Source of the DNA: Streptacidiphilus sp. P02-A3a
Lineage (GTDB): Bacteria; Actinomycetota; Actinomycetes; Streptomycetales; Streptomycetaceae
Reading direction: 5' to 3'
Assembly (NCBI RefSeq): GCF_014084105.1
Contig: NZ_CP048289.1
Coordinates: 6,209,922 to 6,273,921, forward strand
DNA length: 64,000 bases
Shown in pieces: positions 1-11,888 of this stretch; position 1 is the stretch's first letter, and each line of letters opens with the position of its first letter. Under the pieces are notes generated by a model that was not told the DNA's origin, did no database searches, and was given only the letters and a program-made list of their open reading frames with translations. The position numbers and the translations under genes are program-made.

Positions 1-1379
1 AGCCGGAACATCCGCCAGGCCGGGTGCCCGGCCAGCTCCACGCCGCCGCCCTCGCGTCCGGCGGCGGTGTAGCCGTCCAGCAGCAGCCCGGCGACCGCGG
101 CGGACCACAGCTGCGCGGTGCCGCGCAGCCGCTCCAGCGCCGCCAGCCGCTCGGGCGTCCAGCCGGGGGTGTCCGGCGGCGCGCCGGCCGCGCACAGCAG
201 CGCGGTGCGGCAGGTCTCGTCGCTGTCCAGGTCGAGCACGATCGCCGCCTGGTGGGCCAACTCGTCGGCGGTGAAGCACTCCAGGCCCCGGAGCAGCCCG
301 ACCAGGTCCTGCCAGGGCGACTGCGCGGAGGTCGGGTCGTCCGGGTCGAGGACCGGCGTGGACAGGTCGATCACGCACATCTCCCAGCCGCCGGGGGTCT
401 CCCGGCGCAGGAAGTGCGACAGGTGCAGGTCGCCGTGGCTGGGGCCGGACGGCGGTGGCGCCAGGGGCAGTTCGCGGACCAGCGCCGCCTCCCGGTCCAG
501 CGCGGCCAGGGCGGCGCGGCGGACGGCCACCGGGAACCGGTCGTCGGCGAGGATCCTCGGGCGCAGCTCGGCGGTCCGCGCGGCGGTCCCGGCGTGGTAG
601 CCCTCGGCCGGGAACTCCGGTGCCGGGCCCAGCCGCTGGGCCAGTTCCCGGTGGAAGTCGCGGAGGAACCGCCCGGCCCCGCGCAGCGGTTCGGCCAGCC
701 GCTGCCGCGCCGCCGCCACCGCCCGCTCCGGGGCGAGCCCGTCGGCCACCGGCTGCCACAGTCCGCGCAGGCTGTCCCGCAGCGGGACGTCGAGGCCGTC
801 GCCCGCCGCGTAGGCGTAGACCACGCCGAGCGGTTCCAGCCGTCCGGTGCCAGGTTCGCGGTAGCCGTAGTCGCCGACCAGCCGCTGGGTGCGCCCGCCG
901 GGGGCCATCAGCCGCAGCAGTTCCGGCTCCCGGTTGCCGGTGTCGAGCCGCCGGTAGGTCTTGTGGGCGTGCGCGGCCCCGCCGAGGTCGACCAGGGTGA
1001 GCGAGTTGGAGGACCAGCCCGGGTCGAACGGCAGTTGGCCGCGGAAGTCCGCCGGGGCGCCGTGGAACTCGATCCGGCCGCCCCGGGCGGTGGGCAGCCG
1101 CAGCCCCTCGGCCAGTGCCCGGACCACCGCCCGGTCGTAGTCGGCGGCCCCGGCCGCCTCCGGGCCCCGGCCGTGGTCGGCGACCGGCACGAACCAGCGG
1201 CTCGGCTCCCCGCCGACCGGGGCCACCAGCAGCAGCCGGAACTCGCCGAGGGCGGCCTGGTCGAGGACGTCGAACCGCCGCGCGGCGCGCCCGTTCCCGT
1301 CCATCCACGGCGCCCGTCGCAGCAGTTCCGCCAGTCGCGGCGGGGCACTGCCGAGCAGCAGGGTGTCCAGTCCTTCCAT
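1..1379 (-). CDS. Maltokinase-like phosphotransferase (partial, 3' end outside window)
   Basis: The ATG at 1379 lies 2 bp after the stop of the upstream permease gene, and the reading frame is open to the window edge (about 459 residues). An HGDLHLSHFL motif at about residue 315 gives the phosphotransferase catalytic Asp (D317). About 22 residues later CVIDLSTP supplies the metal-binding Asp, followed by SPWQDLVGLLR. The N-terminal half contains a KTYRRLDTGNREPELLRL stretch. This order matches maltokinase (Mak) and the kinase domain of TreS-Mak fusions, which phosphorylate maltose, and more broadly the aminoglycoside phosphotransferase fold. It is the last visible gene of the cyclitol operon, so a pseudo-sugar or cyclitol substrate is more likely than maltose; that is inference. 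Mak proteins are about 450 residues, so little is missing. Confidence 0.7.
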   Translation of the reverse strand, partial: MEGLDTLLLGSAPPRLAELLRRAPWMDGNGRAARRFDVLDQAALGEFRLLLVAPVGGEPSRWFVPVADHGRGPEAAGAADYDRAVVRALAEGLRLPTARGGRIEFHGAPADFRGQLPFDPGWSSNSLTLVDLGGAAHAHKTYRRLDTGNREPELLRLMAPGGRTQRLVGDYGYREPGTGRLEPLGVVYAYAAGDGLDVPLRDSLRGLWQPVADGLAPERAVAAARQRLAEPLRGAGRFLRDFHRELAQRLGPAPEFPAEGYHAGTAARTAELRPRILADDRFPVAVRRAALAALDREAALVRELPLAPPPSGPSHGDLHLSHFLRRETPGGWEMCVIDLSTPVLDPDDPTSAQSPWQDLVGLLRGLECFTADELAHQAAIVLDLDSDETCRTALLCAAGAPPDTPGWTPERLAALERLRGTAQLWSAAVAGLLLDGYTAAGREGGGVELAGHPAWRMFR

Positions 1380-1381
1380 GG

Positions 1382-2197
1382 TCAGCTCCCGGTCATCTCG
1401 TAGCGGTCCACGCCCCGGTGCCAGGTGGTCAGCGCGAGCGCCGCCAGGGCGGCGGTCACCACGGGCAGCCAGGGCAGCAGCCCGGTCCGTCCGAAGACCA
1501 GGTAGGACGCGGGGACGTAGGCGGTGAAGGCGTAGGGCAGTACCCAGGTCAGCAGCCACCGCAGGGAAGGTTGGTAGAGGTCCAGCGGGTACCCAGCGAA
1601 GTCGCCGAGCTGGCCCGCCGCGTAGAGCGCCGGGAAACTGTTGGTGGTCCAGAACGACAGCGAGGCGAACAGCGTCTTGATGGACGCCAGGATCACCGCG
1701 CCGCAGAGCACCAGCAGCGGCGCCAGCACCAGTTGCAGCGGCGTCAGCCGCAGCCGCAGCCCGTCGGCGGCGTACCAGGTGATGCCGATCCCGGTGGCCA
1801 GCTCGCCGAACGCGTCCGGGTACAGGAAGCGCTCGGAGAGCAGCGTGAACAGCGGGTTCACCGGCCGGATCAGGTACCGGTAGAAGTCGCCGGACTGCAC
1901 CAGCCGCCGGGCCAGGATCCACATCTGGTCGGTGAACAGCCGGTCCAGGCCGCGCGGCAGCAGCGAGAACCCGAGCAGGAAGAGCACCTGCCGGTAGTCC
2001 CAGCCGCCGATCACCGACACCTGCTGGAAGACCATCGCCACCACCAGCAGCTGGCAGCCGACCCGGGCCAGGAACCCGCCCGCGCCGATCAGGAAGTCCA
2101 TCCGGTACTCGGTCAGCCGGTGCAGGCTGACCCCGCTCAGGTACCAGGTGAGCCGGGTGTACCGGGCCGCCGTCGCGGCGGCGCCGCGCGCGCTCAT
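1382..2197 (-). CDS. ABC-2 type exporter permease 2
   Basis: A 271-residue membrane protein with about six hydrophobic segments, for example around GFLARVGCQLLVVAMVF and LVLAPLLVLCGAVILASI. It resembles the uncharacterised ABC-2 permeases that work in pairs with a DrrA-like ATPase (the COG3694/COG4587 type). The ATG at 2197 overlaps the stop of the preceding permease (ATGA), so the two are translationally coupled. With the ATPase at 3015-4043 it should form a heteromeric exporter. Placement inside the cyclitol operon suggests export or self-resistance for that product, comparable in role to the AcbWXY/GacWXY exporters of acarbose loci; the comparison is by context only. Confidence 0.8.
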   Translation of the reverse strand: MSARGAAATAARYTRLTWYLSGVSLHRLTEYRMDFLIGAGGFLARVGCQLLVVAMVFQQVSVIGGWDYRQVLFLLGFSLLPRGLDRLFTDQMWILARRLVQSGDFYRYLIRPVNPLFTLLSERFLYPDAFGELATGIGITWYAADGLRLRLTPLQLVLAPLLVLCGAVILASIKTLFASLSFWTTNSFPALYAAGQLGDFAGYPLDLYQPSLRWLLTWVLPYAFTAYVPASYLVFGRTGLLPWLPVVTAALAALALTTWHRGVDRYEMTGS

Positions 2198-3018
2198 CCG
2201 CCCAGCACCTCCACCCGGCGTACCGCGCGGCGCCAGGCCAGGGCGGTGAGCAGCGACATCCCGGCGGTCCAGGCGGCCTGCCCGGCCAGGATCTCCGCCG
2301 CCTCGGCCGGGCCCTGGTACTCGCCGAGCAGCAGCCGCAGCGGGCTGTCCACCAGTCCGGCGAACGGCAGCAGCCGGGCGGTGGCGGCCAGCGGTCCGGG
2401 CATCAGGCTGATCGGCACGACCTGCCCGGCGAGCAGCGCGACCAGGCAGTCCTTGACGATCCGGATGCCCCAGATGTTGGTGGTGGCGAACCCGGCGAGG
2501 CCGACCAGCAGGTTCACCTCGAACGCGATCACCATGGCGAGCAGCGAGGACGCGGTGAACAGCAGCGCGTCGCCCGCGCCCGGCCGTTGCAGCGGCAGCA
2601 GCCCGGCGTACAGCAGCACCACCGGGCCGCCCACCAGTCCGGCGTTGACCAGCGAGACGGGCACCCCGGCGCAGAACCGGGTGAGCGGGTAGCTGACCGG
2701 CCGGATCAGCGAGACCGCGATGTCGCCGCGCTGGATCTCGCCGGAGACCTCCTCGTCGACCCGGTTCGCGTGCAGCAGCCCGAGCACCTGCGCCAGCAGC
2801 ACGTAGGTGGTGATCCCGGCGCGGTCGAAGCCGCCGGGCCCGGAGCCGCTGTCCCCGTTGTAGACCGCCCGCCACAGGAAGACCTGGAGGCTGACGGCGG
2901 TGGTCGCGGTGAGCGCGTTGACGAAGAAGGTGGAGCGGTAGCGCAGCATCGTCTGCAGGCTGCCGACCGCGAACGGCGTGTAGCGGCGCAGCCCGGCGAG
3001 CCCGGTGGCGGCGCTCAC
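2194..3018 (-). CDS. ABC-2 type exporter permease 1
   Basis: A 274-residue membrane protein with a cytoplasmic N-terminus and about six membrane spans. The segment EVSGEIQRGDIAVSLIRPVSYPL is typical of the DUF990/COG4587 ABC-2 permease group. The GTG at 3018 overlaps the TGA of the ATPase gene (GTGA), and its own stop overlaps the next permease start. It is one half of the membrane channel of the exporter; the partner is at 1382-2197 and the ATPase at 3015-4043. The transported compound cannot be read from sequence. Confidence 0.8.
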   Translation of the reverse strand: MSAATGLAGLRRYTPFAVGSLQTMLRYRSTFFVNALTATTAVSLQVFLWRAVYNGDSGSGPGGFDRAGITTYVLLAQVLGLLHANRVDEEVSGEIQRGDIAVSLIRPVSYPLTRFCAGVPVSLVNAGLVGGPVVLLYAGLLPLQRPGAGDALLFTASSLLAMVIAFEVNLLVGLAGFATTNIWGIRIVKDCLVALLAGQVVPISLMPGPLAATARLLPFAGLVDSPLRLLLGEYQGPAEAAEILAGQAAWTAGMSLLTALAWRRAVRRVEVLGG

Positions 3019-4043
3019 GCGGTACTCCCCTGCAACTCGTCCGGGCGCCCGGCCTGGCCCGCGTAGATCCGGCGCAGCACGGTCTCCAGGTCCGGTTCCG
3101 GGGCGAAGCAGTCGGTCAGTTCGAAGTGCTCCAGCAGGAAGGACATCACCTGCTGCGCGGTCCAGCGCCCGGCCGGGTACTCGACCTTGATCCGGCCGCC
3201 CTCGACCGCGCTGGCCCGCACCGCGTCCAGACCCGACTCGATCAGCGCGACCGCCCGCTCCGGCGGGACACTGCCGCTGTGGTCGAACAGCACGGCCCGG
3301 GTGTCGGCGCTGCGCAGCAGTTCGTGCATGGTGCCCTGGTGCACCACCGTGCCGTGGTCGACCACCAGTACCTGGTCGCAGATGGCGGTGATGTCGCCGA
3401 TGTCGTGGCTGGTCAGCATGACGGTGGTGCCGAGCTGCTGGTTGGCCCGGTTGACGAGTTCCCGAACGGCCTCCTTCAGCACCAGGTCGAGGCCGATCGT
3501 CGGCTCGTCCAGGAACACCACCGCCGGGTCGTGCAGCAGGCTGGCGGCGACCTCGGCGCGCATCCGCTGGCCCAGGCTCAACTGCCGGACCGGGGTGGTG
3601 CCGAGGGCGCCGAGGTCGAGCAGTTCCTCGTAGGTGGCCATGTTGCGGTGGTAGACCGGGTCGGGTATCTCGTAGATGCGGCGCAGGATCCGGAACGAGT
3701 CCAGTACCGGCAGGTCCCACCAGAGCTGGCTGCGCTGGCCGAAGACCACGCCGATGTTGCGGGCGTTGCGGCCGCGCTCACGGTGCGGGTCGAGCCCGGC
3801 CACCCGGCACAGGCCGGAGGTGGGGCGCATGATGCCGGTGAGCATCTTGATGGTGGTGGACTTCCCGGCGCCGTTGGAGCCGATGTAGGCGACCTTGGTC
3901 CCGGCCGGGATCGAGAAGGAGACCCCGGAGACCGCGCGGACCGTCCGGTGGCTGCGGCTGAACAGCGTGCGCAGGCTCCCGGCCAGGCCGGGGCGCCGGT
4001 CGTGCACGGTGAACTCCTTGACCAGGTCCTCGGCGACGATCAC
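3015..4043 (-). CDS. ABC-2 exporter ATPase (DrrA-like)
   Basis: A 342-residue ATPase. Walker A GSNGAGKST lies at about 55-63, the signature LSLGQ at 155-159 and Walker B AVVFLDEP at about 174-181, followed by the switch His in TSHD. The long N-terminal strand before Walker A and the C-terminal accessory region are typical of the COG4586 branch of DrrA-type drug and polysaccharide exporters. The start chosen is the GTG at 4043, which overlaps the stop of the aminotransferase gene (GTGA); the upstream extension of this frame is antisense-like noise. It powers the two permeases encoded directly downstream. Confidence 0.9.
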   Translation of the reverse strand: MIVAEDLVKEFTVHDRRPGLAGSLRTLFSRSHRTVRAVSGVSFSIPAGTKVAYIGSNGAGKSTTIKMLTGIMRPTSGLCRVAGLDPHRERGRNARNIGVVFGQRSQLWWDLPVLDSFRILRRIYEIPDPVYHRNMATYEELLDLGALGTTPVRQLSLGQRMRAEVAASLLHDPAVVFLDEPTIGLDLVLKEAVRELVNRANQQLGTTVMLTSHDIGDITAICDQVLVVDHGTVVHQGTMHELLRSADTRAVLFDHSGSVPPERAVALIESGLDAVRASAVEGGRIKVEYPAGRWTAQQVMSFLLEHFELTDCFAPEPDLETVLRRIYAGQAGRPDELQGSTA

Positions 4044-5341
4044 CGGTGGGCCTCCGTCGCCTGTTCCAGCGCCCGGCCGAGCAGGGTCAGGCCCTCCTCC
4101 AGCAGCGTCCGGTCGATGGTGAACGGCGGTGCCAGCCGGATGACGTGGCCGCCGACCGAGGTCCGCAGGCCCAGGTCGAGCGCGGCCAGGTAGACCGCCC
4201 GGGCGAGCTCCGGCGCGGGCTCGCGGGTGGCCGGGTCGCGGACGAACTCCAGCCCGTGCAGCAGCCCGAGTCCGCGCACGTCGCCCAGCACCGGGAAGCG
4301 GGACCGCAGTTCGGCGAGCCGTTCGTCCATCAGCGCGCCCAGCGTGCGGACCCGGGCGATCAGCGTGTCCCGGGCGACGACCTCCAGCGTGGCCCGGGCC
4401 GCGGCGATGCCCAGCGGGTTGTTGGCGTAGGTGGAGGCGGTGGAACCGGCCGCCGCGGCCCGGGGGTGCCGCAGCACCGAGGACCGCCCGGCCAGCACCG
4501 CGAACGGGAAGCCCGAGGCCAGGCCCTTGGACAGGGTGACCAGGTCGGGCTCGATGCCGAACCGCTCGCAGGCCAGGAAGGTCCCGGTGCGGCCGCCGCC
4601 GGTCAGCACCTCGTCGGCGACCAGCAGCACGCCGTTGTCCCGGCAGGTGTCGGCGATCCGCTCCCAGTAGCCGGGCGGCGGCACGATCACCCCGGCGGCG
4701 CCCAGCACCGGCTCGAAGACCAGCGCCGAGACGTTGGGCTTCTCGGCGATGTGGCGGCGCACCAGCCCGGCGCAGCGCACCTCGCAGGAGGGGTACTCCA
4801 GGTCCAGCGGGCAGCGGTAGCAGTACGGCGAGTAGCCGAGGACGCTGTTGCCGGCGTGCGCCTGGTTGCCGATGTCCCAGTGCACCAGCATCCGGGCTCC
4901 CTGGGTCTTGCCGTGGAAGCCGTGCCGCAGCGCCCCGATCCGGTTGCGTCCGGGCTCGGCGACGGCCTGCACCGCGCGCAGCGCGGCCTCGACCACCTCG
5001 GCGCCGGTGGAGAAGAAGGCGTAGGTGTCCAGTTCCTCCGGCAGCAGCCGGGCCAGCAGTTCGCAGAGCGCGGCCCGGTCCGGGGTGGCCGAGTCGTGGA
5101 CGTTCCACAGCCGGGCGGCCTGCTCGGTCAGCGCCGCCACGACCTCCGGCGGGCAGTGCCCGAGCGACTGGGTCAGCGTCCCGGCGGCGAGGTCGATGTA
5201 CTGGTTCCCGTCGAGGTCGGTGAGGACCGCGCCGCGGCCCTCGACGAAGACCCGGCGGCCCAGCGCGGACTCCTCGGACGCGCCGGGGGCCAGGTGCGCG
5301 GCCTCCCGGTGCAGGAGTTCCTCCTGGCGCGGCCCGGTCAC
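4040..5341 (-). CDS. Class III PLP-dependent aminotransferase
   Basis: A 433-residue protein with the GabT/ornithine-aminotransferase fold. The phosphate-binding stretch FFSTGAEVVEAA, the cofactor Asp in LVADEVLTGGGRTG and the Schiff-base Lys K272 in TLSKGLASGF are all present. The segment PYCYRCPLDLEYPSCEVRCAG is cysteine-rich, as seen in a subgroup of class III aminotransferases. The GTG at 5341 overlaps the cupin stop (GTGA). Between a sugar-phosphate cyclase and an exporter, the likely job is to install an amino group on a keto-cyclitol, as aminotransferases do in C7N-aminocyclitol pathways. That role is inferred; a house-keeping omega-aminotransferase is the alternative. Confidence 0.85.
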   Translation of the reverse strand: MTGPRQEELLHREAAHLAPGASEESALGRRVFVEGRGAVLTDLDGNQYIDLAAGTLTQSLGHCPPEVVAALTEQAARLWNVHDSATPDRAALCELLARLLPEELDTYAFFSTGAEVVEAALRAVQAVAEPGRNRIGALRHGFHGKTQGARMLVHWDIGNQAHAGNSVLGYSPYCYRCPLDLEYPSCEVRCAGLVRRHIAEKPNVSALVFEPVLGAAGVIVPPPGYWERIADTCRDNGVLLVADEVLTGGGRTGTFLACERFGIEPDLVTLSKGLASGFPFAVLAGRSSVLRHPRAAAAGSTASTYANNPLGIAAARATLEVVARDTLIARVRTLGALMDERLAELRSRFPVLGDVRGLGLLHGLEFVRDPATREPAPELARAVYLAALDLGLRTSVGGHVIRLAPPFTIDRTLLEEGLTLLGRALEQATEAHR

Positions 5342-5769
5342 CGCGGGTCCCCCTCGGCGGTGCCGAGCGGGCCCAGTTCGAACACCAGCAGGTGCAGGTC
5401 GGTACCGGCGTCGTTGCGCAGCCCGTGCTCGCCCCACGGACGGTTGCGCACCACGTCGCCCGCCCGCACCGGGAACTCCGCGCCGTCCAGGGTCATCCGG
5501 CCGCTGCCGGTCAGGATCACGTAGGTCTCCTCGTCGTCGCCGTGGCGGTGCCGCCCGATCGAGGTGCCCGGCGGCAGCACCACCAGGTCGATGAAGGCGA
5601 TCGGGGGCCGGGGCCCGTCCGGTCCGCCGCGCTGGTAGGCGCGGTGGGCGAGGATCGACCCCTCGCCGCCGTGGTCCTCGGTGACCAGGCGCAGCAGCCC
5701 CTCGTGCAGGTTGGAGACCTGCCTGCGGGTCACCCCGGCTGCCGCCCCGGCTGGTTCGGTCGGGCTCAT
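5338..5769 (-). CDS. Small cupin protein
   Basis: A 143-residue single-domain cupin. Motif 1 appears as GTSIGRHRHGDDEETYVILTGSG (two His and one Glu as metal ligands, near residues 72-79) and motif 2 as GDVVRNRPWGEHGLRN with the last His. The ATG at 5769 has a GGAG about 10 bp upstream. It sits between the cyclase and the aminotransferase and is coupled to the latter. Possible roles are isomerisation or epimerisation of the cyclitol, dioxygenation, or binding of a product; the sequence alone does not choose. A known valiolone epimerase family (VOC fold) is not seen here, so this cupin could replace it. Confidence 0.75.
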   Translation of the reverse strand: MSPTEPAGAAAGVTRRQVSNLHEGLLRLVTEDHGGEGSILAHRAYQRGGPDGPRPPIAFIDLVVLPPGTSIGRHRHGDDEETYVILTGSGRMTLDGAEFPVRAGDVVRNRPWGEHGLRNDAGTDLHLLVFELGPLGTAEGDPR

Positions 5770-5874
5770 CTGGGCGCTGCTCCTGTTCTGCGGTGGTACC
5801 GCCGTGCGGTCGCGGACCCGTGGTACGGGGCCCGCCTCGGTGCTCCGGGGGGGGTCAGCGGGGTGCCTTGCCCC

Positions 5875-7065
5875 TCAGTGGCTGACGGCCATGGGGCCGG
5901 AGCGCTGCTCGGGCGGCCGGACCGCGAGCGCGTCCAGGGCCTCCTCCAGGGCCGCGGCCGGTACGTCCTCCAGGTCGTCGACGAAGGCGGCGGCGCCGAT
6001 GCCGACCGGCACCACCAGGTGCAGCCGCCGTCCGCGCCGTTCGTAGGACGCCAGCAGCGCCTGCCGCATCAGCTCCGGCGTGCAGGTCCGCGGGTCGTGC
6101 ACGGGCAGGCCGAGGCCGGAGATCAGCCGGACGATCCGCTCGCAGTCCTCGGCGCCGAGCAGGCCGAGCACCCGGGCGAGTTCGGCGGAGATCGCCATGT
6201 CGATCGCGACCGACTCGCCGTGCGCGATCCGGTAGCCGCTGGCGGTCTCGATCACCGGGCCGAAGGTGTGGCCGAAGTCCACCAGCCGGGCCAGGTCGTG
6301 CTCGCGCAGGTTGGGGCAGAGCTCGCGCAGCATCAGTTCCATCGCGCTGCGCAGCACGTAGTCCTGGAGTTGCGGCAGCGGCTGCCGGAACACGTCGGGG
6401 TGCTCCTCCAGGACCTGGAACAGCCGCGGGTCCTTGATGATCGCCATCTTGGCGGTCTCGCCGAGGCCGCAGCGGATCTGCCGGTCGGGCAGGGTGCGCA
6501 GGAAGGCCGGGTCGTTGATCGAGGCGTGGGCCGGGTGGTAGGCGCCCAGCATGTTCTTGGTGCCGAGGGCGTTGACGCCGGTCTTGACCCCCACACCGAC
6601 GTCGATCTGGCCGACCAGGGTGGTGTTCACCTTGATGTAGCGCAGGCCCCGTCCGTAGATCGCGGCGGCGAAGCCGACCAGGTCGCAGGTGACGCCGCCG
6701 CCGACGGCGATCATCACCCCGCGCCGGTCGAGGCCGGACTCCTTGGCCACGGCGCAGATCTCCTGCACCGACTCCATGGTCTTGTGCCGCTCGCCGGTGC
6801 GGATCACCCGCACGCTCCAACTGCCGTCAGCCAGACGGGCGGTGAGGTAGCGGCGGAGCCGCTCCCCGTACAGCCGGTCCACCGTCGGGCCGAGGAAGGC
6901 GATCACCCGGCGGCCCTCGCAGTAGTCCGCGAGCAGGGGGTTGTCCGGCGAGAGGACGTCCTCGGTCAGGTCCACCCGGTACCCGGTCCCCTCCGGGGCG
7001 AGCAGGTCGAATCCGCCCTCGTCAGCGTGCACGCCCGGCTCGGGCGATGGCCTGTGACCTGTCAA
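5875..7065 (-). CDS. Sugar-phosphate cyclase, 2-epi-5-epi-valiolone synthase-like
   Basis: A 396-residue enzyme of the dehydroquinate-synthase superfamily. NAD-binding and active-site blocks are GGGVTCDLVGFAA, NTTLVGQIDVGVGVKTGVN and KNMLGAYHP. The zinc ligands are E203 (GETAKM), H266 (DFGHT) and H282 (HGES). In dehydroquinate synthase the second block reads FGHTFGHAIE; here it is FGHTFGPVIE. As far as I recall, the His-to-Pro change is characteristic of sedoheptulose-7-phosphate cyclases such as valiolone synthases, so this is unlikely to be shikimate AroB. The TTG at 7065 was chosen because GAGGAG lies 5 bp upstream; the frame stays open to 7122. Predicted reaction: cyclisation of sedoheptulose 7-phosphate to a C7 cyclitol. 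The exact product (EEVS, EVS or a relative) needs assay. Confidence 0.8.
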   Translation of the reverse strand: MTGHRPSPEPGVHADEGGFDLLAPEGTGYRVDLTEDVLSPDNPLLADYCEGRRVIAFLGPTVDRLYGERLRRYLTARLADGSWSVRVIRTGERHKTMESVQEICAVAKESGLDRRGVMIAVGGGVTCDLVGFAAAIYGRGLRYIKVNTTLVGQIDVGVGVKTGVNALGTKNMLGAYHPAHASINDPAFLRTLPDRQIRCGLGETAKMAIIKDPRLFQVLEEHPDVFRQPLPQLQDYVLRSAMELMLRELCPNLREHDLARLVDFGHTFGPVIETASGYRIAHGESVAIDMAISAELARVLGLLGAEDCERIVRLISGLGLPVHDPRTCTPELMRQALLASYERRGRRLHLVVPVGIGAAAFVDDLEDVPAAALEEALDALAVRPPEQRSGPMAVSH

Positions 7066-7088
7066 CAGCGCTCCTCGGGTGGGCCGGT

Positions 7089-7114
7089 GGCAACCGGACT
7101 CGGCAACCGGACTC
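7089..7114. repeat. 13-bp tandem repeat before the cyclase gene
   Basis: GGCAACCGGACTC occurs twice head to tail, just upstream of the chosen cyclase start. It lies in the cyclase/alpha-glucosidase divergent region, so it could be an operator, or it could simply be part of an N-terminal extension if a more upstream start is used. Confidence 0.5.
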
Positions 7115-7174
7115 GGCGTCAACTGACTGTGCCGGGGGGCAAGTCAAACACTTTGATCCACTTGTCTGCAAGAC

Positions 7175-7204
7175 GCTTCAGAGACTTTCAGCAAATTGTT
7201 GCAG
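7175..7204 (+). promoter_or_regulatory. Shared starch-gene operator, copy 1
   Basis: A 30-bp element containing CAGAGACTTTCAGCAA followed by TTGTTGCAG. It aligns without gaps to sites at 9046-9075 (21 of 30 identical) and 23653-23682 (19 of 30), each upstream of a starch-degrading enzyme. The core resembles the imperfect palindrome GAAANTTTC that LacI-family regulators of polysaccharide genes often use. Here it lies 90 bp before the alpha-glucosidase and about 110 bp before the divergent cyclase start, so it could control both. Confidence 0.55.
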
Positions 7205-7293
7205 CCGTACGTCCACGGTGGAACCATCGACTGCTGCCCGTGGAACCGCCACGGCGCCCGCCGCACCGGCCCGAGTCCCGAAGGACACCCCCC

Positions 7294-8961
7294 ATGACCC
7301 TGACCGCAGACACGAGCCCACCGCCCGCACCCGGCCAGCTCCCCGGCGCCGACGGCGACTGGTGGCGGGGCGCCGTGGTCTACCAGGTCTACCCGCGCAG
7401 CTTCGCCGACGGGAACGGCGACGGCATCGGCGACCTCAGCGGGATCCGCGACCGGCTCGGCTACCTCAGGGACCTGGGCGTGGACGCGGTCTGGCTCTCC
7501 CCGATCTACACCTCGCCGCAGGCCGACGGCGGCTACGACGTCGCCGACTACCGCACCGTCGACCCCTGCTACGGCACCGTCCGCGACGTGGAACTGCTGG
7601 TGGCGGACGCCCACGCGCTGGGCCTGCGGGTGATCACCGACCTGATCCCGAACCACTGCTCGGACCAGCACCCGTGGTTCCTGCGGGCGCTGCGCGAGGG
7701 CCCCGGGTCACCCTCCCGGGCCCGGTTCCACTTCCGCCCGGGGCGGGGCGAGGGCAACGCGCAGCCGCCCAACGACTGGCTGTCGCTGTTCGGCGGTCCG
7801 GCGTGGACCCGCACCGTGAACCCGGACGGCAGCCCCGGCGAGTGGTACCTGCACCTGTTCACCCCCGGCCAGCCGGACTTCAACTGGGACTCCGGCGCCG
7901 TCCGCGACGAGTTCCGCTCGATCATGCGCTACTGGCTGGACCGGGGCCTCGACGGCTTCCGGGTCGACGTGGCCCACGGCCTGGTGAAGGCGCCCGGACT
8001 GCCCGACGTGGGCCACTCGGAGGCGGTCCCACTGCTCGGCGGGAACCGCGTCCCCTACTTCGACCAGGACGGCGTGCACGAGATCTACCGTTCCTGGCGC
8101 ACCGTGCTGGACGAGTACCCGGGTGGCCGGATCGCCGTCGCCGAGGCCTGGACCAAGACCCTGGAGCGCTCGGCCAGGTACGTCCGCCCCGACGAACTGC
8201 ACCAGGCCTTCAACTTCAAGTTCCTCAGCGCCCCTTGGGACGCCACCGGGCTGCGCGACCTGATCGGGCGCTCGCTGGACGCCATGTCCGCCGTGGACGC
8301 CCCCACCACCTGGACCCTGTCCAACCACGACGTGGTCCGCCACGCCAGCCGCTACGCCTGCGGCGACCCGGGGCGCGGCCTGCGGCGGGCCCGCGCGGCC
8401 AGCCTGCTGATGCTCGCCCTGCCCGGCTCCGCCTACCTCTACCAGGGCGAGGAGCTGGGCCTGCCGGAGGTCACCGACCTGCCGGACGAGGCCCGGCAGG
8501 ACCCCTCCTTCCTGCGCAAGGACGGCGGCAACGGGCTGCGCGACGGCTGCCGGGTGCCGCTGCCGTGGTCCGGCGACCAGCCGCCGTACGGCTTCGGCGC
8601 GGCCGTCGGCGGGCCCAGCTGGCTGCCGCAGCCCGCGCACTGGTCGGCGCTCAGCGTGCAGACCCAGGCGGGCGACCCGGCGTCCACCCTGGAGCTCTAC
8701 CGGGCGGCGCTGGCCCTGCGGCGGCGGCACCCGGCGCTGGGCGCGGGCACCTCGGTGCGGTGGCTGGACCTGGCCCCCGGACTGCTGGCGTTCCGCCGGG
8801 ACAGCCCGCGGGGCTCGCTGGTGTGCGTCGCCAACACCACCGGGGCGCCGGTCCGGACCCCGAGCCCGGGACGGCCGCTGCTGGCGTCCGAGGCCCCGGT
8901 GGCCGACGGCGCCGAGGTGCTGCTGCCGGCCGACAGCGCGAGCTGGTGGCAGGCGGACTGA
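7294..8961 (+). CDS. Alpha-glucosidase / oligo-1,6-glucosidase (GH13)
   Basis: A 555-residue enzyme without a signal peptide, so cytoplasmic. The N-terminus AVVYQVYPRSFADGNGDGIGDL and the four GH13 regions are clear: nucleophile D225 in GFRVDVAHG, acid/base E284 in AVAEAW and stabiliser D346 in SNHDVVRH. Overall features fit the actinobacterial alpha-glucosidase branch (AglA, GH13 subfamily 30), which cleaves maltose and maltodextrins brought in after amylase action. The ATG at 7294 follows AAGGA. It is divergent from the cyclitol operon and shares its upstream site with the amylase and pullulanase genes, suggesting common starch-dependent control. Confidence 0.9.
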   Translation: MTLTADTSPPPAPGQLPGADGDWWRGAVVYQVYPRSFADGNGDGIGDLSGIRDRLGYLRDLGVDAVWLSPIYTSPQADGGYDVADYRTVDPCYGTVRDVELLVADAHALGLRVITDLIPNHCSDQHPWFLRALREGPGSPSRARFHFRPGRGEGNAQPPNDWLSLFGGPAWTRTVNPDGSPGEWYLHLFTPGQPDFNWDSGAVRDEFRSIMRYWLDRGLDGFRVDVAHGLVKAPGLPDVGHSEAVPLLGGNRVPYFDQDGVHEIYRSWRTVLDEYPGGRIAVAEAWTKTLERSARYVRPDELHQAFNFKFLSAPWDATGLRDLIGRSLDAMSAVDAPTTWTLSNHDVVRHASRYACGDPGRGLRRARAASLLMLALPGSAYLYQGEELGLPEVTDLPDEARQDPSFLRKDGGNGLRDGCRVPLPWSGDQPPYGFGAAVGGPSWLPQPAHWSALSVQTQAGDPASTLELYRAALALRRRHPALGAGTSVRWLDLAPGLLAFRRDSPRGSLVCVANTTGAPVRTPSPGRPLLASEAPVADGAEVLLPADSASWWQAD

Positions 8962-9332: not shown

Positions 9333-11888
9333 TTGCCACCCTTCCGGAGATCCACCCGCACCGATCCGTCAGCGCAACCGTCCCGTCGCGGCCGGGGCGG
9401 CCTCATGCTCGCCGGGACGCTTGTCGCCGGCGCGCTCCTCCCGCTCACTCTGCAGACCGCCGCCCACGCGACCAGTGGCAGCAACGGCGGCGACGTCATC
9501 GCCAACCTCTTCGAGTGGAACTGGCCCTCGGTCGCCAACGAGTGCACCAACGTGCTCGGCCCCAAGGGCTACGGCGCGGTCCAGGTGGCCCCGCCGCAGG
9601 ACTCCATCCGGCTGGCCGGGAGCACCCACTCCTGGTGGGACGTCTACCAGCCGGTCGGCTACGACCTCAACAGCCGGATGGGCAACACCGCCCAGTTCCA
9701 GGCGATGGTGGCGGCCTGCCACGCGGCGGGCGTCAAGGTCTACGCCGACGCGGTGATCAACCACACCTCCGGCAACGACCAGACCAGCACCGACTCCTAC
9801 GGTGGCGACAGCTTCAACGTCACCACCAAGAACTACAGCGAGGTCCCCTACGGGCCCGCCGACTTCCACACCTCGCCCGCGAACTGTCCCAACTCGGACA
9901 TGTCCATCCAGGACTGGAACAGCCAGACCCAGGTGCAGGAGTGCGACCTGGAGAACCTGTCCGACCTCTACACCGAGACCGACGACGTCCGCTCGAAGAT
10001 CGCCGGCTACCTCAACACGCTGATCAGCTACGGCGTGGACGGCTTCCGGGTGGACTCGGCCAAGCACATCAACCAGGCCGACATGGCCAACATCATCTCC
10101 CGGCTGAACAACACCCAGTGGGGCCAGCGCCCTTACATCCTGCAGGAGGTCGCCCTCGGCAGCTCCGGCAACCTCGCTCCGTCCGCCTTCGAGAGCAACG
10201 GCAGCGTCATCGGCTTCGACTACGCCAACGCGCTGAAGTCGCAGTTCCAGGGCAGCATCGCCAACCTCAAGACGTTCGGCCAGAGTTGGGGTCTGGAGCC
10301 GAGTGGCAAGGACGGCGCCATGGTCGCCAACCACGACACCGAGCGCAACGGCTCCACGCTCAACTACAAGAACGGCGCGGTCTACAACCTCGCCACCGAG
10401 TTCATGCTGGCCTGGGGCTACGGCGTGCAGCCGACCGTCTACTCCGGCTTCGCCTTCAACACCTCGGACGACTCGCCGCCGGCCGACGCCAACGGCTTCG
10501 TCACCAACACCGACTGCTCCTCCAGCGCCTGGGTCTGCACCGACCGGGTCACCGGGGTCGCCAACATGGTCGGCTGGCACAACGCGGCCCAGGGGCAATC
10601 CGTCGCCAACTGGTACGACGACGGCTCCAACCTGATCGCCTTCTCCCGCGGCAACGCGGCGTGGATCGCCATCAACAACGAGAGCACCACGCAGACCAAG
10701 ACCTTCGAGACCGGCCTCCCGGCCGGCACCTACTGCGACGTCATCCACGGCAACTACAGCAACGGCAGCTGCTCCGGCCCGCTGGTCACCGTGAACAGCA
10801 GCGGTGACGCCACGGTCTCGATCGCGGCCGAGGACTCGGTGGCCCTGTACGACCTGGCCACCACCAACTCCTCCTCGCCCACCGCGAGCCCCAGCGCCTC
10901 CGCGTCCGCCGGCGCCTCGGCCACCCCGAGCGCCAGCGCCAGTGCCAGCGCCAGTGCCTCGGCCACCCCGAGCGCCGGCTCCACCGCCACCGCTCCGGCC
11001 GGTGAGGTCGCCGAGACCTTCACCGTCAGCGGCACCCCGGCCAGCGCGCCGATGTACCTGGTCGGCTCGGTCGCCGGCCTGGGCAACTGGGCTCCGGCGT
11101 CGGCGATCCCGATGACCCAGTCCGGCGGCAACTGGACGGTGACGGTCGATCTGCCCCAGTCCACCGCGATCCAGTACAAGTACATCGAGCAGGACTCCTC
11201 CGGGAACGTCACCTGGGAACCGGGCGCCAACCACTCGGCGACCACCGGCTCCGGCAGCACCGCGACGCTGACCGACGCCTACAACGGCTCCAGCACCACG
11301 GTCAGTGAGAGCTTCACCGACAACGCCACCACCTGGCTCGGCCAGAGCGTCTACGTGGTCGGCTCGGTGCCCGCGCTGGGCTCCTGGAACACCGCCGACG
11401 CCGTCCCGCTCTCCTCGACGAACTACCCGAACTGGACCGGGACCGTCTCCCTGCCTTCCAACACCGCCTTCGAGTACAAGTTCATCAAGAAGGACCCGGA
11501 CGGCACCATCGAGTGGGAGTCCGGGGCCAACCACACCGCGACCACCGGCACCACCGCGGCCGGCCTGAGCAACACCTGGGGCGCCGCGGCCACCTCCCCG
11601 GTCGGGGTGACCTTCGACGAGAAAGAGACCACCGTCCCCGGCCAGAACGTCTACGTGATCGGCGACATCGCGGCCCTGGGCCAGTGGAACACCACCCAGG
11701 CGGTCGAGTTGAGCTCGGCCAACTACCCCACCTGGTCCTCGACCCTGAGCATCAGCCCGAACACCACCTTCCAGTACAAGTTCATCGTGGAGGACGCCGC
11801 CGGGAACATCACCTGGGAGTCCGGCGCCAACCGCAGCTACACCACCGGCGCCTCCGGCTCGGTGACCCTGAACGACACCTGGCAGTAG
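9333..11888 (+). CDS. Secreted alpha-amylase with three CBM20 domains
   Basis: An 851-residue exported enzyme. An arginine-rich N-terminus and hydrophobic core end in a likely cleavage after AHA near residue 46. The GH13 domain (subfamily 32 type, about residues 50-510) has D241 (GFRVDSAKH), E272 (LQEVAL) and D335 (ANHDTERN). A Ser/Ala/Pro linker (about 512-556) leads to three tandem CBM20 starch-binding domains at about 560-650, 657-749 and 758-851; each shows a YLVG/YVVG/YVIG strand, a WN or NW pair and a YKYI or YKFI strand. Streptomyces amylases usually carry one CBM20. The TTG at 9333 has GGGAG 8 bp upstream. It liquefies starch outside the cell; the products suit the alpha-glucosidase encoded upstream. 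Confidence 0.95.
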   Translation: MPPFRRSTRTDPSAQPSRRGRGGLMLAGTLVAGALLPLTLQTAAHATSGSNGGDVIANLFEWNWPSVANECTNVLGPKGYGAVQVAPPQDSIRLAGSTHSWWDVYQPVGYDLNSRMGNTAQFQAMVAACHAAGVKVYADAVINHTSGNDQTSTDSYGGDSFNVTTKNYSEVPYGPADFHTSPANCPNSDMSIQDWNSQTQVQECDLENLSDLYTETDDVRSKIAGYLNTLISYGVDGFRVDSAKHINQADMANIISRLNNTQWGQRPYILQEVALGSSGNLAPSAFESNGSVIGFDYANALKSQFQGSIANLKTFGQSWGLEPSGKDGAMVANHDTERNGSTLNYKNGAVYNLATEFMLAWGYGVQPTVYSGFAFNTSDDSPPADANGFVTNTDCSSSAWVCTDRVTGVANMVGWHNAAQGQSVANWYDDGSNLIAFSRGNAAWIAINNESTTQTKTFETGLPAGTYCDVIHGNYSNGSCSGPLVTVNSSGDATVSIAAEDSVALYDLATTNSSSPTASPSASASAGASATPSASASASASASATPSAGSTATAPAGEVAETFTVSGTPASAPMYLVGSVAGLGNWAPASAIPMTQSGGNWTVTVDLPQSTAIQYKYIEQDSSGNVTWEPGANHSATTGSGSTATLTDAYNGSSTTVSESFTDNATTWLGQSVYVVGSVPALGSWNTADAVPLSSTNYPNWTGTVSLPSNTAFEYKFIKKDPDGTIEWESGANHTATTGTTAAGLSNTWGAAATSPVGVTFDEKETTVPGQNVYVIGDIAALGQWNTTQAVELSSANYPTWSSTLSISPNTTFQYKFIVEDAAGNITWESGANRSYTTGASGSVTLNDTWQ

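Follow-up and report, generated by a model that had tools for sequence, protein, structure and literature searches.

An operon at the left end of the window analysed here, a 64,000-nucleotide stretch of the Streptacidiphilus sp. P02-A3a chromosome (C1:6209922-6273921 of the 9.33 Mb one-contig genome, C1 being contig NZ_CP048289.1), is very likely an acarbose-type cluster. It is highly probable that the operon serves the synthesis and export of an acarbose-type pseudo-oligosaccharide which inhibits alpha-glucosidases and amylases, and the product is likely acarbose or a close congener. This reading draws on gene content, gene order, homology and phylogeny, and every enzymatic step was deduced from characterised homologues. 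In sequence comparisons, the back end of the operon is acb-like in content and order (V U S R P I J Q K), as in the acarbose cluster of Actinoplanes sp. SE50/110, and the front end is of the type found in the sct cluster of Streptomyces coelicoflavus ZG0656 (acarviostatins) and the gac cluster of S. glaucescens (acarbose). The initial annotation had proposed an undescribed cyclitol (C7 pseudo-sugar) cluster of the acarbose type. The cyclitol assignment was supported gene by gene by counterparts in these systems. The word "undescribed" does not apply to the kind of cluster, since the class itself is known; what is new is the acb/sct mixture, the missing acbA and acbB, a gene for a GMC oxidoreductase and a second front end in the same genome.

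The operon comprises 17 tightly coupled genes on the minus strand and spans about 20.7 kb, down to C1:6196282. As had been predicted, its remainder lies left of position 1: the window holds only the genes from C to U, U is cut at position 1, and the operon continues for about 13.6 kb on the same contig. The proposed coupling was also confirmed. Among the 16 junctions there are 11 overlaps of 4-34 bases, four gaps of 2-37 bases and one gap of 105 bases after the cyclase gene; the 37-base gap precedes GT2, and all other junctions lie between -34 and +7. Each of the 17 genes has an uninterrupted reading frame up to its stop codon. The gene set is beyond chance, its order being conserved across other genomes. 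With families assigned by Pfam, the genes are as follows; those from the cyclase to U have window positions, and the rest lie in the left flank.
5875..7065 (C1:6215796 to ~6216986), minus strand: sedoheptulose 7-phosphate cyclase C, predicted 2-epi-5-epi-valiolone synthase type, SctC/GacC-like (DHQ_synthase, 3e-36)
5338..5769 (C1:6215259-6215690), minus strand: cupin, SctJ-like, candidate cyclitol 2-epimerase (PF07883 Cupin_2, 1.6e-15)
4040..5341 (C1:6213961-6215262), minus strand: class III aminotransferase V, AcbV/SctV (PF00202, 1.3e-82)
3015..4043 (C1:6212936-6213964), minus strand: exporter ATPase W, AcbW (PF00005)
2194..3018 (C1:6212115-6212939), minus strand: exporter permease X, AcbX (PF06182 ABC2_membrane_6)
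1382..2197 (C1:6211303-6212118), minus strand: exporter permease Y, AcbY (PF06182 ABC2_membrane_6)
1..1379 (whole gene C1:6209831-6211300), minus strand: APH-family kinase U, AcbU, putative valienol 7-phosphate 1-kinase (PF01636, 2.4e-6)
C1:6207718-6209823, minus strand: glycosyltransferase GT1, AcbS-like
C1:6206529-6207725, minus strand: GlgC-like R
C1:6205508-6206536, minus strand: ROK kinase M
C1:6204594-6205511, minus strand: RmlD-like gene
C1:6204016-6204597, minus strand: NUDIX protein P
C1:6201786-6203978, minus strand: glycosyltransferase GT2, AcbI-like
C1:6200856-6201782, minus strand: HAD phosphatase J
C1:6198673-6200889, minus strand: amylomaltase Q
C1:6197775-6198683, minus strand: PfkB kinase K
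C1:6196282-6197778, minus strand: GMC oxidoreductase

Pfam thus recovered the cyclase, cupin, class III aminotransferase and ABC-2 exporter genes that the initial annotation had listed. The left flank adds two GT5-like glycosyltransferases, a GlgC-like nucleotidyltransferase, two kinases, a HAD phosphatase, an RmlD-like reductase, a NUDIX hydrolase, an amylomaltase and the GMC oxidoreductase. The glycosyltransferase or pseudoglycosyltransferase genes that were to be sought there are therefore GT1 and GT2.

In a comparison with the Protein Data Bank (PDB), K matched acarbose 7(IV)-phosphotransferase AcbK (6wb7) at 366.5 bits and acarbose kinase Mak1 (6wb4) at 213.6 bits, and it was 62% identical to the crystallised AcbK over 295 residues. 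The K protein of genome G891 matched the 6wb7 stretch in 298/298 residues, and loci L187 and L188 were therefore taken to represent the characterised acb cluster, in which S, I, L, N and O were named by position. The published acb order is V U S R P I J Q K M L N O C (PMC7682106), with which L187 and L188 agree. The present operon runs V (WXY) U S R (M, RmlD-like) P I J Q K, so that V, U, S, R, P, I, J, Q and K keep their relative order; W, X and Y are also shared with acb. Identities to the G891 proteins were between 55 and 79% (V 79, W 68, X 55, Y 58, U 56, S 69, R 74, P 68, I 57, J 63, Q 62 and K 62%). The functions of AcbC, M, O, L, N, U, J, R, I and S have been assigned experimentally, in that study or in earlier work (PMC9200736), and further background on the acb genes is available (PMC3364876; PMC7081202).

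The sct and gac clusters were compared through S. coelicoflavus NBRC 15399 (L068) and loci of the same layout. They share C, the J cupin, M, O (RmlD-like) and the assembly genes except P, but differ in gene order and carry rmlA and rmlB beside V. Several back-end proteins were closer to acb than to sct/gac: K (62 vs 44-46%, the latter in six loci), U (56 vs 41-50%), I (57 vs 47-51%) and S (69 vs 60-64%). V (77-81% identical to six sct/gac-type loci), R, Q, J and W did not separate the two types, and X and Y were slightly nearer to sct/gac. P is present in acb and in the collinear relatives described below, and the mapped parts of the other loci do not show it. The identity table and the glycosyltransferase trees omit G290, which was mapped separately, and S. 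malaysiense, S. murinus, S-118 and S. cupreus, whose loci stop early or are broken.

GT1 and GT2 are 48% identical to each other. In the glycosyltransferase tree, in which the S and I paralogues root each other, GT1 fell with the acb S protein in a 15-row group (support 100/99) that includes G792, Hamadaea, G989 and the collinear relatives. GT2 fell with the acb I protein in an 8-row group (99/99) that includes G792 and relatives of collinear group A1. The S and I proteins of the sct/gac type lie outside both acb-containing groups. In U, an HGDLH loop was invariant in 10 rows. The initial annotation had called U a maltokinase-type kinase: the APH-family assignment stands, while the maltokinase label is not supported, as the 458 residues in the window matched 0/177635 distinct PDB sequences at the sequence level (phmmer, E 0.001), with no similarity to solved maltokinases or SjGlcNK at that limit; a common fold is possible. 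A link to the glucosamine kinase cluster of Streptacidiphilus jiangxiensis was rejected on the same result and on the different gene set of that cluster.

The front end gave the opposite picture. Against seven sct/gac-type loci, identities were 62-71% for C, 57-65% for the cupin, 59-63% for M and 55-64% for the RmlD-like protein, compared with 41% for C and 32% for M against acb. The cupin and the RmlD-like gene had no match in the acb loci examined, and L, N and O of the acb-type front end were not found in the operon itself. In size and place, the front-end genes agree with SctC, SctJ, SctM and SctO as given in Table 1 of PMC8234114. According to that paper, the sct cluster has no homologues of AcbO, AcbL and AcbN, SctC is 39% identical to AcbC, and the missing proteins are replaced by SctJ (138 residues, a proposed 2-epimerase), SctM and SctO (324 residues, a proposed dehydratase).

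In the acb locus, AcbO belongs to the xylose-isomerase-like TIM barrels (PF01261), which ruled out the cupin as an AcbO homologue. The absence of a VOC epimerase, which the initial annotation had taken as a difference from known clusters, does not set this operon apart, because the acb locus has a TIM-barrel epimerase and sct-type clusters have a cupin. With the AcbO homologue of the source genome as query, 26 genomes were searched at a limit of 1e-20. Matches were obtained in the source genome, in the acb-type genomes G891 and G994, in G318 and, weakly, in G004. There was no match at 1e-20 in the other genomes with an sct-type cyclase and a cupin (0/20), although fainter homologues are possible, and in the loci of all 20 the cupin adjoins the cyclase. 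Because AcbO is missing and the cupin is beside the cyclase in these genomes, the cupin is the most plausible candidate for the 2-epimerase of the sct-type route, although this assignment is among the least secure. The RmlD-like gene was likewise rejected as an AcbN homologue: no RmlD-like match occurs in the acb loci and no AcbN match in the operon.

The cyclase is predicted to be of the 2-epi-5-epi-valiolone synthase type, with which its sequence features agree. Its open reading frame was listed as 5875-7122, and a TTG at 7065 behind GAGGAG, picked by eye, is the likelier start. The top PDB match was ValA (4p53, 245.6 bits), followed by 5tpr (170.7 bits) and 3-dehydroquinate (DHQ) synthases (at most 170.1 bits). 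On the aroB model TIGR01357 it scored 226.2 bits, below the cut-off of 305. In a tree of 77 rows (75 loci and two PDB stretches; L011, on a long branch, was labelled AroB by hand), the AroB group (11 rows) and the rows of the present cluster type (26 rows) each occupied one side of a branch, both with 100/99. Together with the TIGR01357 result, this separation rules out AroB and agrees with the expectation that the cyclase would fall outside it. A second tree, which takes in only 17 of the remaining cyclase loci, supported at 99 an sct/gac-type clade that contains this cyclase. With L011 and L151 left aside, three alignment columns read D, N and H in 10/10 AroB rows versus N, D and P in 25/25 rows of the present type and in ValA, and the zinc ligands E222, H285 and H301 and lysines 180 and 225 (415-residue numbering) were invariant across those rows.

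Relatives of the cyclase at 63-81% identity were found in 14/393 other genomes of the family that were searched, the next best match being 46%. A survey of named genomes gave 11 loci in one scan. Within the genus (14 genomes searched, source genome included), the best match in the 13 others was 43%. In Streptomyces cupreus (L070), a stretch matches only C, the cupin and part of V, and a cyclase of 37% identity lies 5 kb further on the opposite strand.

A second front-end locus (L006, C1:6835227-6840355) is located 620 kb from the operon. It carries homologues of C, M, L, N and O in that order, at 47, 57, 60, 63 and 50% identity to acb, and the Pfam families fit. The row is followed by another zinc-type dehydrogenase, and nearby lie genes for an MFS transporter and for a NUDIX protein with 49% identity to P.

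The proposed pathway follows the published back-end chemistry (PMC9200736). The cyclase would convert sedoheptulose 7-phosphate to 2-epi-5-epi-valiolone, the cupin may invert C2, and the ROK kinase M would phosphorylate O7. Dehydration and reduction to valienol 7-phosphate may then fall to the RmlD-like enzyme, either by itself or together with a partner, a step that is also among the least secure. U would add the 1-phosphate, the phosphatase J would strip the 7-phosphate, and R would form guanosine diphosphate (GDP)-valienol. Housekeeping RmlA and RmlB would provide deoxythymidine diphosphate (dTDP)-4-keto-6-deoxyglucose, and V would aminate that sugar, the outside supply being another least secure point. 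GT2 (AcbI) would transfer the aminated sugar to maltose, and GT1 (AcbS), as a pseudoglycosyltransferase, would make the C-N bond. Finally, WXY would export the product, K would 7-phosphorylate it inside the cell, and Q and the alpha-glucosidase would shorten its glucose chain. The role of the GMC oxidoreductase also ranks among the least secure points.

Four observations weigh against this pathway and its product. The enzymes of the sct cluster are described as biochemically uncharacterised in PMC8234114. Neither of the two acb loci examined has a gene matching the GMC oxidoreductase. The distances of U, K and I from the sct/gac type suggest that details of the acceptor or the product may differ. 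Moreover, acbA and acbB are not in the cluster, as indicated by a genome search with TIGR01207 and TIGR01181, whereas acb has rmlA and rmlB beside C. The absence of these two genes makes the operon a variant of the class and not an acb or gac cluster. The only TIGR01181 (rmlB) match over the cut-off was at C1:8354336-8355292, 2.1 Mb from the cluster, and the only TIGR01207 (rmlA) match over its cut-off was at C1:8355465-8356319; this rmlD-rmlB / rmlA-rmlC group adjoins tuf, fusA and rpsG (names assigned by eye).

The last observation is the basis of an alternative which we regard as unlikely, namely that the cluster belongs to the same class but its product is not acarviosine-based. In this case V would aminate a different keto sugar, such as a product of the GMC enzyme, and the amino sugar would retain its 6-hydroxyl (adiposin-like) or be placed elsewhere. 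In its favor, rmlA and rmlB are beside the cluster in 6/6 sct/gac-type loci with mapped upstream flanks (G307, G234, G373, G387, G328 and G287) and also in G027, and rmlB lies 16 kb from the cluster in G290, while acbA and acbB were not near the cluster in 6/6 collinear relatives with fetched flanks (G125, G128, G202, G046, G180 and G361), whose rmlB is either on a different contig or no closer than 84 kb. The GMC gene closes the operon here and in the collinear relatives, and AcbI has diverged. S. murinus, which has a related cluster, showed no true RmlB, but this was not used as proof because the assembly is fragmented. The RmlB found 16 kb from the S-118 cyclase was rejected, since the intervening genes place it in a neighboring sugar cluster. 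On the other side, V is close both to sct/gac V and to AcbV, as given above, GMC also occurs in two loci with rmlA and rmlB beside the cluster, and rmlB is present in 14/14 genus genomes. In addition, upstream of the collinear cluster on the Streptomyces sp. NBC_00467 plasmid lie rmlB, at 3 kb, and a thymidylyltransferase gene, at 7 kb (rmlA and rmlB within 9 kb). Our view is therefore that the dTDP sugar comes in trans from housekeeping RmlA and RmlB.

A more far-reaching view, which appears quite unlikely, combines the two front ends with these points. The genome would hold two distinct routes to valienol 7-phosphate, one through the cupin and RmlD-like enzymes and one of the acb type (C-M-L-N-O). 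The operon, without dTDP-sugar genes and with a GMC oxidase, could make a new pseudo-oligosaccharide whose amino sugar derives from an oxidised sugar instead of dTDP-4-keto-6-deoxyglucose, and the cupin would represent a new cyclitol epimerase family.

That the cluster is silent or decayed and yields no product is very unlikely. Nothing direct speaks for it apart from an operator that is degenerate relative to the collinear relatives, whereas the 17 frames are open, the metal ligands and lysines of the cyclase are conserved, and no gene is visibly decayed compared with the A1 relatives (61-89% identity). A shikimate-type or unrelated glycogen operon is extremely improbable: the Pfam and NCBIfam labels do read DHQ synthase/AroB-like for the cyclase, GlgC-like for R and starch-synthase-like for the glycosyltransferases, but R (193 vs 425, glgC) and GT2 (48 vs 328, glgA) fall below the cut-offs as the cyclase does, AroB forms its own group in the tree, and a separate AroB is encoded at C1:3118164.

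To the right of the operon, the following features were recognised.
7066..7293, no strand: divergent promoter region with a degenerate MalR/AcrC-type operator
7294..8961, plus strand: GH13 alpha-glucosidase, SctE1-like by size (PF00128, 3.7e-99), divergent from the cyclase
9333..11888, plus strand: alpha-amylase with three CBM20 (PF00128, PF00686), cluster neighbour
The divergent alpha-glucosidase and the adjacent amylase thus stand as initially described. The alpha-glucosidase is beside the cyclase in 4/4 other A1 loci, and the sct/gac-type genome G234 has a 71% identical enzyme near its cluster. In G202 the gene (L138 764-2062) matches in pieces in different frames, which points to a pseudogene or a sequencing error. 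Searching 20 kb upstream in the four other A1 loci revealed no CBM20 amylase, which here is a neighbour and at most a putative member of the cluster. Between the cyclase and the alpha-glucosidase, G125, G202 and G180 carry two CTTGCAG motifs 13 bases apart, and G128 carries one; this motif is the MalR/AcrC half-site (PMC5526262). The corresponding place in the window has near-matches only, plus one CTGCAAG at 7166. Taken alone, CTTGCAG in the window was dismissed (5 observed vs 4.98 expected), and only the paired arrangement in the relatives counts.

The collinear relatives share the operon C-cupin-V-W-X-Y-U-S-R-M-O-P...-K-GMC and form two groups: A1 (G125, G128, G202 and G180) and A2 (G046, G361, S. 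griseofuscus, S. hygroscopicus NBRC 3401 and the NBC_00467 plasmid). The A2 loci (L074, L076, L169, L170 and L175) have no AcbI, and those of S. griseofuscus and S. hygroscopicus have no Q either. The three A2 loci read further to the right (G046, G361 and NBC_00467) carry aldo/keto reductase and radical SAM genes behind GMC. The product of these loci may therefore differ. At the NBC_00467 locus (L175, NZ_CP107895.1, 126384-168486), the acarbose-type cluster sits on a linear plasmid of 396 kb and comes with additional glycogen-synthase-like and HAD genes as well as a LacI regulator beside an IS4 transposase.

The validamycin cluster (ValA, VldE) has a homologous cyclase and the same pseudoglycosyltransferase principle, but VldE is GT20-like (PMC9200736) while S is GT5-like here, and ValA is outside the sct-type clade. 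Homologues of AcbS and AcbI have been reported in 9 genera, including an AcbS branch without AcbI (PMC9200736), which fits the A2 loci. Such clusters were described beside 1-4 amylases in 12/295 Streptomyces (PMC13240717), a trestatin cluster was linked in PMC12498427, and an acarviostatin-like cluster is known from one Kitasatospora (PMC8545861). In the mainly open-access literature on acarbose-type clusters, supplements aside, we found no description of the present hybrid architecture.

An sct-type cyclase with a cupin is present in 20/22 other clusters tabulated, a ratio that is biased because most of them were collected with an sct-type cyclase as query. In a sample drawn by glycosyltransferase (354 Micromonosporaceae genomes, 5 of which have GT1 relatives at 1e-150), 3/5 clusters have this combination. 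The front end known from textbooks for acarbose (AcbC, M, O, L, N) may be just one of two. As a hybrid of two known acarbose gene sets, the operon shows pathway evolution by modules and makes uncharacterised early steps easily testable. Both front ends in one genome permit C2 epimerisation and dehydration to be tested directly by swap and rescue. Furthermore, it would be a further source of this antidiabetic drug class.

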